Source: Metamycoplasma salivarium (lineage in GTDB: Bacteria > Bacillota_I > Bacilli_A > Mycoplasmatales > Metamycoplasmataceae). From it: a stretch of DNA of 64,000 bases. The stretch's first letter is position 1, and every line of letters begins with the position of its first letter. Positions 48,365 through 61,287 of this stretch are shown here, one piece after another. The DNA lies in NCBI RefSeq assembly GCF_900660445.2, contig NZ_LR214938.2, positions 62,001 through 126,000 on the forward strand, read 5' to 3'. The position numbers and the translations under genes were made by a program. The notes beneath the pieces are model-generated. The model was not told the DNA's origin and searched no databases. It worked only from the letters and a program-made list of their open reading frames with translations.

Positions 48365-51300
48365 ATGAAACAGACCAAAAGGCAAAAGATTTTACTTTAT
48401 GCCTTACCATTATCTATTTTAGGAATAGGTACAATCTCAGCACCAGCAATTTTGTTGTTTAAGAAAGAAGATAGAAATAATGAAGTCTTTTATCTTAACA
48501 ATAAGTCTTATACTTCTCGTATAGAATGAGAAAAGGCTATTAGAAAACTAGCAAGACAAATTGAAACGCATAGTGAAAAAACAATTTATTATTCAAATAC
48601 AAAAAATAAATCTTTTAGTGATATTAATAATTTTAAGAAATTTCTTGCTAACCATATTCACACTATAGAAGGCTCTCATTATGGTGATATTGATAAGAAT
48701 GAATTAAATGTTGATGGATCATTGTCATCAAATTTAATGAATCAGTTTAATTTTGACGAGCCTAAAGAAGACGAAAATGGTGAAAAGGAAAATGATAACA
48801 CCACAGCATATATGGGAAAAAATGGAATAGCATATGAATCAGAAGATGAAGCTAAAGATTCATATGCTAATACCCATACTTTTTATAAATTTCAAGGGAA
48901 GTATTATTCTTCTAAACAAGAAATTAAAAATATGATTCATAAGGAAATTTTAAGAATTAATAGTGAATTTGCTGATGATACAGAAAGAGCAAAAGCCTTT
49001 AAAGAATTTTTTGCAATAAAACAACCTGATAACATATATCAAGCACCCACAAATATTGTATTTGTTGCAGGTGAATTTGATCAAGAAATTGAAGAATCTA
49101 AGTTAGATGAGTTTATTGAAAGTAATTGTAAAAAATATGTTAGTCATAACAATGGAATTTATGAAGTTGATAATTTTAGCAATAGATTTCTATCAAGCGA
49201 TGAATACCTTAAAAAGCTCCCCATTCTAAACGTTCAATCTAATCAAGGTAGAAAAAAATATTTAATTGATAATGATATAGACGATCCATGTAACTTATAT
49301 GGAAGTTACGTGCATGAATCTACTGGTCGCGATATAGAAAATATAACTGATTATAAGAAATGGTCAAAACAGCCTACAAACGATTTTAAGCTAAAAAGAC
49401 ATAATTCACAAAATCAATCTTTAGTTAACAAATTTATTTCAAGTTTATTGTCAACAGCCAATGCAAATTTTATTGAAAAGTATATCAAAAGACATAAACT
49501 GAATAAAACACAACAAGATGAATTAACAAAAGAATATGTAAATGATTTTTCAATTTTTAAATATTTTAAATTTAGAGATAAATTTCAAACAATGAAAAAA
49601 GAACTTACAAAAGTTCAAATTAATGAAACAGATTCGACGCACAAAAATTTGTTTTCAAAATTAGAATCTATTATTACTTTTACAAAACGTGGTAAAAATG
49701 GTGGATTTTTCAATCAAATATCAATTACATATTTATCCGGGTTAGCACATTTAATTAAATATGAAGCATCATCTAAAGCAATTAATGCTTTTAAAGATTA
49801 TTATCGTACAATGTTTAAAGAATTAGATGATTGTGTCAAGGGTGTTATTGGTGAAGAATTATATAATGATAACAATGGTAAAGCAATAGATTTAGTTGAA
49901 TTATTCGGTATTGATGATTTAGGGTTTGATTTTAATTCTGATTTTACTTATTTTATTAATGTTTTTGCTAATAACTCAAGGATATTGACCGCTATTTCAG
50001 TTATAACAAATGCTATGACTGCCGTAACAACAACTAATTCATTAACCAAATTTAATTCTAATTTTTTATTAAGACAAGCTGATAATGACGATGATCTAAT
50101 TCTTTATAAATCTCTTTATGAGAAATATGCATTTATAGGTAAAGATTCACCTTACGTCTATAGTGATGAAGAAGGCAAATATATAAAAAATAAAGACTTC
50201 AAAAGAAAGTTAAATGAATATGAAGATGCTCAAATAAATTTAACTGTATTGTCTGCATTGCAAGTTGGAGAAAGTTTTTCAAAGTCTGTTGAAGCAACAC
50301 TAAGTAACATTGCAAAAAATTTAGATAGATATATTTCTAACAGGCCAGGAGCATATAAAGTTCAATATCAAGAAACTTTTAGTTTTATACAAACTTCTAC
50401 TTTAGAATATCATCGTAGATATAACTCTAGTGATACTACAACTATAAATAAAATTAGTAGATTGAATGTTAATAATAATGCAAAAGATGCAAAACAAATG
50501 CTTTATGAATATAATAAAGTAAAGAAAAACGAGAAATTTTCTAGTTTATTAACTATTAGAAATAAAACTATAGTCAAATATGGTGATGGTACCATTAAAT
50601 TAGAAAAAATAGAAACCACCACTGACAAAATTGCTGAAAAAATTAATAAGTACAAAAGTATAGCAGCAATTGCAGCAGATGTTTTCAAATTAATTAGCAT
50701 TTTTAATTCAAAAGATAATATAAATGTAGATTATGAAGCACTTGGAACCATCAAGTCAATTTTTAACTCAATTATAGGAGCATTTCCACCTAATCCTGTT
50801 TCGTTGTGTATTGGTGCTGCATTAAATATAATTATGGATTTGGCTATGCAAATTATTGGTAAAAAAACAACTAGTGATTATGTTTATACAGATACTGGTA
50901 ATGTTAATGACTCATATGTATGAGACGGCGGAATTACCAATAGTAGATTTTGAGGTCTTATTGTTACTGAAGAAAGATCAATAAAACATGCTAAATTATT
51001 AGATCCTATTGAATATATACCTGAATTTGTTAATAGCTATTATTATTTTAATGGCAAGAAGTATACAAATTTAGATTCTACTAATTTAAAAGCAGATGCT
51101 TTAACAGCTATTCTAAATGGGGATGTTATAACTAATGATATCCATTCTGTATATTCATTTGAAAAAGATTTGAAGAAATTTGAAGAAGGTGACAATGCAA
51201 AATATTTCTTTTCAACAATTGATGATTTAAAGAAACATCTAAAAGTCAATGAAAGAAACTTACTAAAGACTAGATATTTAACTGAAGGAGCTTACATGGA

Positions 51301-51985
51301 ATTTGATTCAGTGCAAGAGCCAATTTGAACTAAGAACTATGATGAAATATCTAAAACATTGTTACAACTTATTGATGAAAAACTAAGACCAACATTAGTA
51401 ATGAAAATACCTGAACTATCACAAAGTAATATCCCAATTGATCAACTTAATAAAGATTATCATGGATTTAATAACAATTCAATTAATTACAAAACTATTT
51501 TAAAACAACTTAACGGTGAAAAAGAATTGAAATCTAATGAATTTTTAATGTTTGATACAAACTTATTTAATACAAAAATAGGAAAATACTTCCATGATTA
51601 TTTAATGAAAACATATGAGTTAAGATTGAAATTATTTAGAGAAAAATTTAATGTATTATCAAAAATGGTATCAAAAGAAATGTTATTTACTAATAAAAAT
51701 TATGATGAATTAAAATCCTCGACAAGGCATAAGATTTTCAAGATTTATGGAATCAATGGCGAATATAAAATGTTTTTATCTTATGATACTGCAATTAACT
51801 ATTTACATAAGAAAAACTATTTGGATATAACTCAAAAAACAGAAGAATATGAATTTTTAAATAAATATTTTTATGATGGAAAATACTTTAATAGTTGAGA
51901 TGAAGTAATTAAATATTGTGAAATACAAAGTGATAAAGAAAAGTTAAAAAGAGAGAATGCATCAAAAGGAGTAAAAAATGAATAA
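48365..51985 (+). CDS. Large membrane-anchored surface protein, first gene of the ABC-linked operon
   Basis: 1206 residues with one N-terminal membrane segment (about 10-32) and no lipobox Cys, so probably anchored outside. A second hydrophobic stretch is near residues 800-835 (LCIGAALNIIMDLAM). A short motif recurs through it: YxxxGxxYxSxxE/DxxxxxI, for example FYKFQGKYYSSKQEI, YYYFNGKKYTNLDS and KYFYDGKYFNSWDEV. No known domain was recognised. Four or more UGA Trp codons. The stop lies 8 bases inside the next gene, so the two are coupled. GAAAGG precedes the ATG. Confidence 0.75.
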
Positions 51986-59575: not shown

Positions 59576-61287
59576 TGTCTTTATTACTCAAAAATCATTT
59601 TAGATATTTGTTTAAAAACAAAATTGCTCTAACTTTCTTATCCCTTTCATTTCTATTGATATTTGGAAATCTGCCTTTTAACTTGGTTAATAATTTGTTT
59701 TTTGGATATAACTGAATTACGTTTTTAATTTGCTATGTTGTTATTGTTATTCAAAGTTTAATGTTTTTTCAAATTATATTTAATAATTCAAAAATAAATC
59801 AATATGATCAAATTTTAAATTCGACTTTTTCTAACAAAAGAAAAATTTTTGGTTCAAAGTTAATATTTGGAATTATTTTCTTCATTTTTAGTAGTTTAAT
59901 TATAGCTTCACTTAATGCAATATTTTTAGCATCAAAAGTTAAAACTAATAGCAGAATATTTTTATATTTTATTAGTTTATTTTTCTTTAATTTATTAGCG
60001 TTTATATTTAGTTTCAATATTATTATTTTTTTTGCAACTCTAATTAAAAATAATGCTTTTAGAAATTCATTAAATTTAGTTGTTGCTGGTATTTTAATTG
60101 CAACTCCTATTATTAGCAGAACTCTTATTTATGAATCACCTGAAGAAATTAATTGAAATAACTATAAAAAAGTTATTGAAATTACAAAAGATAATAAAGA
60201 AATTACCCATTATGTTTTTAAAAATATTGATGAATTAAATAATCAAAGTAATAGCCATAGCAAATATTATTTTGATGTCATCAATGCATTTTATTTAGCA
60301 CCTTCGACTATTATGAAAAGTATCATAAATGATTGTAATGTTAAGCCATACGAAATTACAAATAGTAAGTATAACAATTATGTTTTTGACCAAAAACTTA
60401 AAATTAAAAATTGAGAATTAGCAAGCAATTATTATGTATACAATGTTAATGATATTGATTTAGCAAAATATGATAATAGTAAGCTAATTAATTTAATTCA
60501 AAAAGAAATTTTTGCAAATTTAGCATCAAAAGATTTTTTAGAAATTAAAAATTTAGTCAAAAGTCCAATTTGAAACGCTGATTTATTTTCAAATGAACAA
60601 TTATCGTCTTTAAAAACAATTTTGGGTTATAAAAGCAAAAATGTTCAATATTTAAGAAGAGATTTTGCTTCGTTAATCAAAAATAACTTGCAGCTTCAAA
60701 AAGACATTATGGATAAATTTGGTTTAGATTTTTATAATCTACTTATTACTTTGTATATTGATAATGCATATACAACAAGTCAAATTACAACTAGACAATC
60801 ATCAAACAATCCATTTTATATTGAAAATCTAATTCCCGAAAATGGTTATTATAATCAAGATACAAAAATTACTGATGAAGATAAAAACTATTTGCAAAAC
60901 TCTTTACTCTCATTTTCTTCTGCAAATGTAATTCTAAGAAATGAAAAATTAGAAACTTTTAGTATTACATTATCTAAATTTCAAAATGTTTTTGAAGATA
61001 TTAATAATTTAGATGATTGAAAGACTTTAATTGAAGAAAAATCAAACAAATTAAAAGATATTAATGAAATACTTGAAAGTTTATATACACTAAGTGATCC
61101 AAACAATGAGATTTTAAAATTTAAATTACAACCAAACTCATCATTTGTTAATCAATATAAATATGTTACTCAATTTAAAACAAAACTAGTTTCTACCAAT
61201 GATGTTGTCTTGTTTATATTGCTGTTTGATATAACTTTAGCTTTATTAACTTATATGATTTTAAAATCAAGAAGAAAAAATTATTAA
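59575..61287 (+). CDS. ABC transporter permease (surface operon)
   Basis: 570 residues. About five or six N-terminal membrane helices in ~200 residues, then a ~340-residue soluble region (about 205-545, charged and Asn/Tyr-rich), then one C-terminal helix (about 543-563, VVLFILLFDITLALLTYMIL). The layout resembles ABC permeases with a large extracellular domain. AGGAGG precedes the ATG. It could export, or act on, the lipoproteins encoded upstream. Three UGA Trp codons. Confidence 0.7.

Follow-up and report, generated by a model that had tools for sequence, protein, structure and literature searches.

What do bacteria without a cell wall do with two giant surface proteins, a series of lipoproteins and an ATP-binding cassette (ABC) transporter encoded in one tight run of genes? 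The question is raised by positions 48365-61287 on the + strand of a 64,000-nucleotide stretch of the Metamycoplasma salivarium genome (contig NZ_LR214938.2, positions 62,001 to 126,000; hereafter the window), whose open reading frames (ORFs) were read under genetic code 4. The unit contains eight genes, which encode two large proteins (here named big1 and big2), four lipoproteins, an ABC ATPase and an ABC permease. Our preferred interpretation, to which we assign a probability of roughly 0.45, is that an ABC-2-like pump, a constant two-protein surface platform and variable lipoproteins work together, probably in the capture of host material or in adhesion.

A common system is indicated by the joint conservation of four core genes (ATPase, permease, big1 and big2). 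In relatives these genes usually follow each other in this order and touch, with big1 of about 1190 and big2 of about 800-850 amino acids, and lipoprotein genes come after them. Among 320 Mycoplasmatales genomes, profiles matched big1 in 61 and big2 in 64, and both were present together in 56 of the 320 genomes compared with 12.2 expected (hypergeometric P ~1e-47, a value that ignores relatedness). A strong permease match was obtained in 29 genomes, 27 of which have both big1 and big2; the two exceptions are G055, where the locus is degenerate, and G066, whose genome is incomplete. For the four core genes, pairwise divergences are correlated (r 0.88-0.95). Distances between neighbours are short in intact cassettes, and the 8-base overlap between big1 and big2 is repeated in several species from two genera. 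A sequence-only reading of this DNA had proposed that all eight genes form one surface machine and should be sought together in mollicute genomes. This proposal is supported for the core genes, which are found again as a compact group in several genera belonging to two families, but not for the lipoproteins, whose families differ between genera.

Within the same genus the distribution of the system is patchy (6 of about 24 genomes), and a pattern search for named relatives returned three loci, from Mycoplasma enhydrae and Metamycoplasma hyosynoviae. Same-genus genomes, including those of these two species, have the order ATPase-permease-big1-big2-lipoprotein; because relatives place the ABC genes first, the order in the window, with the ABC genes last, is probably derived. 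The cassette was mapped in Metamycoplasmataceae and also occurs in genera g13 and g14. A second family has it as well, in an M. penetrans-size genome and its relatives. In genera g3 and g4 it is rearranged or partly broken. In a 395-genome sample of the class, all 17 matches fell within Mycoplasmatales. Spiroplasma-like genomes encode a shorter pair of about 920 and 700 amino acids, whose profiles align with big1 and big2 at hhalign E values of 3.9e-24 and 2.1e-17, respectively (shuffled controls gave E > 0.3), and each of the two proteins prefers its own counterpart. We offer only tentatively the broader proposal of an unrecognised order-wide mollicute surface machine, in which a conserved big1/big2 platform would be combined with plug-in lipoproteins of unrelated families and, in many lineages, with an ABC-2-like pump bearing a giant ectodomain.

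Several further loci illustrate the variety of arrangements. The M. salivarium genome has a second copy at C1:553614-566891 (locus L043, C1:549000-568999, at 3882-18219) with the order ATPase, permease, big1, big2, lipoprotein, big2, lipoprotein, big2 C-terminal piece, lipoprotein; its big1 contains an internal stop. At L044 (2807-8452) the last ~149 codons of big2 are present four more times, in each case ahead of a lipoprotein. The region upstream of these pieces has decayed with stops and the pieces are still open, with ratios of nonsynonymous to synonymous substitution rates (dN/dS) of about 0.05-0.36; they may represent recent duplicates or else a small domain that has been kept. The M. 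penetrans-like locus L104 (2733-14827) has three tandem big1-type genes (1431, 1211 and 1378 amino acids) without ABC genes. Loci L107 (5698-17437) and L108 (4951-16734) each contain a four-gene cluster of distant big1/big2 members (about 810, 725, 1200 and 1095 amino acids), which in L108 adjoins rpsF, ssb, rpsR and rplI. In the Spiroplasma-like loci L109-L112, L119-L121 and L124-L141, the pair of ~920 and ~700 amino acids adjoins tandem lipoproteins and is often followed by a polytopic protein of 460-520 amino acids with 10-11 transmembrane (TM) helices, one of which was searched and had no Pfam match. The degenerate locus L058 (5683-11446) retains three intact lipoproteins beside a truncated ATPase and permease, with big1 and big2 absent.

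The layout of the unit in the window is given in Table 1. The eight genes are represented by nine ORFs, since the third lipoprotein is frameshifted. The genes overlap by 8 bases at 51978 and by 1 base each at 54425, 55519, 56613 and 59575, and are otherwise separated by gaps of 30 bases (before lipoprotein 4) and 24 bases (before the ATPase), none exceeding 30; the one-strand run with these overlaps and gaps had been described correctly from the letters. The flanking terminator-like hairpins are consistent with a single unit, in a region where the count of such sites does not rise above that of shuffled sequences, and promoter-like matches are at chance level.

Table 1. Features of the big1-big2 unit and its flanks (window coordinates)
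Feature	Position	Strand	Description
Terminator-like hairpin, upstream	48195-48216	+	after rpsI and tRNA-Ile; divides the unit from the ribosomal genes
big1	48365-51985	+	1206 aa; surface protein, N-terminal membrane anchor, beta-beta-alpha-like modules at both ends
big2	51978-54425	+	815 aa; surface protein, N-terminal signal/anchor
lipoprotein 1	54425-55519	+	364 aa; lipobox Cys25
lipoprotein 2	55519-56613	+	364 aa; 82% DNA identity to lipoprotein 1, dN/dS 0.22
lipoprotein 3, 5' part	56613-57383	+	frame lost at T7 run
lipoprotein 3, 3' part	57371-57712	+	different frame from the 5' part
lipoprotein 4	57743-58828	+	361 aa
ABC ATPase	58853-59575	+	240 aa; catalytic motifs complete; nearest to ABC-2/ABCA-class ATPases
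ABC permease	59575-61287	+	570 aa; 5 TM helices, ~357-aa ectodomain (residues 187-543), TM6
Terminator-like hairpin, downstream	61320-61337	+	after the permease; closes the unit

The ATPase is the sole protein type of the unit that matches a known family. It passes the test for ABC transporters (PF00005, 74.8 bits, cut-off 25), and its GxNGxGK, SSG and DEP motifs and H193 (Walker, signature and switch elements) are invariant across 14 relatives. Its closest solved relatives belong to the ABC-2/ABCA class, with ABCA lipid transporters ranking nearest, a rank owed partly to the presence of two ATPase domains in those structures. In the permease, hydropathy places an ectodomain of ~357 residues between the first five TM helices and a sixth one, a plan that is the same in 6 checked homologues from two families, and its charge pattern is broadly that of a protein with this domain on the outside. 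The initial assignment of the last two genes to an ATPase and a permease with a large soluble domain is borne out by these motifs and this ectodomain. No family match was found for the permease in Pfam (ABC2 membrane families included), NCBIfam or PDB sequences, where matches are at chance level, and its single weak match in PHROGs has no function assigned there. ABC-2-type (type V) exporters have a single-domain ATPase and a six-TM permease. The two ABC proteins resemble them in the class of the ATPase and, as far as hydropathy shows, in a permease of six TM helices whose outer loop follows TM5; they differ in that this loop is a whole domain, the permease lacks a Pfam or NCBIfam model and two giant surface proteins are linked to them. 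A Type VII transporter (MacB/FtsX/LolC), with 4 TM helices and the ectodomain between TM1 and TM2, was rejected because in this permease the ectodomain is inserted after TM5 and before TM6. An Opp-type importer was also dismissed, as neither the permease nor any lipoprotein matches a substrate-binding protein or BPD_transp family.

The two large proteins have an N-terminal module in common (hhalign E 2.4e-7, against E > 0.3 for shuffled controls). A recurring motif that had been noted in both genes is real but weak: a strict regular expression was too narrow and missed most of the proteins, and the ~30-residue repeats appear as off-diagonal self-matches, each at just P ~0.01. The N-terminal anchor of big1 is a lipobox in some relatives. 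A conserved hydrophobic helix in big1 (residues 814-832) lies shortly before a Y-x-WDGG motif (851-856). Neither protein could be assigned to a family in Pfam, NCBIfam, PDB sequences (where profile matches are at chance level) or PHROGs, and their distant homologues in other Mycoplasmatales families likewise have no Pfam or NCBIfam match above cut-off. An AlphaFold2 model of big1 from four sequences (predicted local distance difference test, pLDDT, 38.5; predicted template modelling score, pTM, 0.26) was unusable beyond a hint of strand-strand-helix units.

The four lipoproteins were expected to be tandem paralogues, and they are (64-82% DNA identity, with pairs at 82% and 77% pointing to tandem duplication), but only three of them are intact, since the third loses its frame in a T7 run that begins at 57335. 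The dN/dS values of the copies are 0.22-0.37 in the window and 0.15-0.48 in genome G051; selection is thus purifying overall, which marks the lipoproteins as functional and not as decoys that evolve freely. The unit has 1.55 homopolymer runs per kb, no more than the remainder of the window (1.9 per kb), and phase variation through such runs is not supported as a general rule. The family of these 'aromatic' lipoproteins was not found outside this genus. In genus g13 the slot after big2 is filled by BspA-type leucine-rich-repeat (PARCEL) lipoproteins, whose repeats are lacking in the window lipoproteins, and in Spiroplasma-like loci by small tandem lipoproteins of other kinds, which match no family. 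As judged from such comparisons of sequence, the slot appears to be interchangeable between genera, with unrelated families occupying it. The lipoproteins of the window could not be assigned to a family in Pfam, NCBIfam or PDB sequences (where matches are at chance level), and lipoprotein 4 had no match in PHROGs. The AlphaFold2 model of lipoprotein 4 from five sequences (pLDDT 51, pTM 0.59) yielded no assignable fold (Foldseek best E 0.25, VIA best Z 3.4); both models were built from very few sequences (four and five), and the lack of a structural match does not show that a fold is new.

The functions that we propose for these components, including the role of ATP, are read from their observed anatomy. 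Big1 and big2 would form a constant platform outside the membrane, docked on the permease ectodomain, and this platform would carry a lipoprotein as an interchangeable recognition or effector module. ATP hydrolysis would be spent on exporting, assembling or mechanically cycling the surface complex and not on import based on a substrate-binding protein; such work is likelier than import because the unit contains neither a substrate-binding protein nor an importer permease. The most economical purpose would be the binding and handling of host macromolecules or surfaces (adhesion or capture); specificity would come from the lipoproteins, which would vary under pressure from the host. The exporter or capture system suggested in the sequence-only reading is likewise inferred. 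Several observations weigh against a fixed eight-gene machine or against our interpretation. The former is at odds with the lack of conservation of the lipoproteins across genera. The pair in Spiroplasma-like genomes usually adjoins tandem paralogous small lipoproteins and mostly lacks adjacent ABC genes, and loci of group g45 and additional M. penetrans-like loci also have the pair without ABC genes; a separation of the large proteins from the ABC genes, which had been named in advance as speaking against a single system, is therefore seen in some lineages. G055 has lost both large proteins and has truncated ABC genes, yet three intact lipoproteins persist there. Furthermore, the low-confidence models of lipoprotein 4 and big1 provide no fold that would back a capture role. 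From the gene neighbourhoods, the ABC genes are usual, not obligatory, partners of big1-big2.

Other explanations account for parts of these data. Big1 and big2 might extract host lipids or another hydrophobic nutrient, with the pump shifting them between leaflets, much as mycoplasmas are known to take up lipids through the large surface protein P116 (PMC10023570). P116 (MPN_213) and big1/big2 are alike in being large anchored mycoplasma surface proteins, with no detectable sequence relation. To our knowledge, P116 has no ABC operon. The nearness of the ATPase to ABCA lipid transporters among solved structures and the conserved hydrophobic helix within the surface part of big1 are in favor of such scavenging; nevertheless, we regard it as unlikely, given that big1/big2 profiles match no solved structure among PDB sequences, nor P116 if it is among these, and that presence in a quarter of the same-genus genomes (6 of about 24) would be odd for an essential supply route. 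The lipoproteins could instead be variable surface antigens that the ABC genes merely help to place, without a shared binding function. Purifying selection (mean dN/dS 0.15-0.48), the ordinary density of homopolymer runs and the order-wide conservation of big1/big2, which an antigenic decoy would not need, make such a cloak quite doubtful, although it would suit the tandem arrays with broken copies (lipoprotein 3 in the window, G047) and the survival of lipoproteins in G055 after the rest of the system.

Two more specialised functions have a poor chance of being correct. Within NCBIfam the ATPase scores highest against a lantibiotic-protection subfamily, as might be expected if the ABC pair expelled membrane-active peptides and the lipoproteins were immunity or bait proteins; at 113 bits, however, this match is far short of the cut-off of 310, and the permease has double the typical length and fits no family of this kind. 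We know of no lantibiotic protection system with two giant surface proteins, and self-protection seems to us highly improbable. At least as remote is an analogue of the MIB-MIP system, with a pair of large surface proteins for antibody capture and processing. The general plan is similar, in that large surface proteins are encoded as a tandem pair in an operon that has several copies and an ATPase module downstream (PMC11213901), but in our unit an ABC ATPase and permease replace the ATPase-like genes and a lipoprotein slot is added. Neither big1 nor big2 has an NCBIfam match (NF045841 included) or a PDB match, and their alignments contain no invariant His and therefore no conserved serine-protease triad. 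A true MIP-family immunoglobulin protease is encoded in the same genome away from the operon, at C1:260448-261641 (411 bits, cut-off 125). Moreover, the pair also occurs in Spiroplasma-like genomes, and the known hosts of Spiroplasma are arthropods and plants, which lack antibodies.

The proposal that the system is undescribed is supported within the families and literature searched: four of the five protein types have no Pfam, NCBIfam or PDB family, none has an informative PHROG, and a literature search covering few subscription journals found no description, which is weak evidence of novelty. A link of the lipoproteins to an annotated type (MAG5150, NF045961) is not supported, as their best score is 23.5 bits against a cut-off of 80 and the weak similarity covers only the signal peptide and the N-terminal 153 residues (first ~150); the true MAG5150 member of this genome is at a separate locus, C1:506306. 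The Spiroplasma P58/P12/P54/P123/P18 adhesion cluster (PMC4607517, PMC9666726) was considered as a possible equivalent of big1/big2, with protein sizes that fit poorly.

Mollicute genomes are very small, yet about one in five of the sampled Mycoplasmatales genomes keeps the giant big1/big2 proteins, which with their usual companions can occupy ~13 kb. Because the four non-ATPase protein types of this genus lack Pfam and NCBIfam models, the members stay 'hypothetical' singly and the system as a whole has been unseen; the families defined here are now open to modelling, annotation and testing. If a platform with swappable lipoproteins is confirmed, it would provide a tangible starting point for studying how bacteria without a wall arrange their surface and select their hosts.

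Elsewhere in the window, an ORF of 2706 amino acids (18763-26880, - strand) has no NCBIfam match; it lies directly downstream of, and overlaps, a TrkH-like potassium transporter gene (26783-28336).

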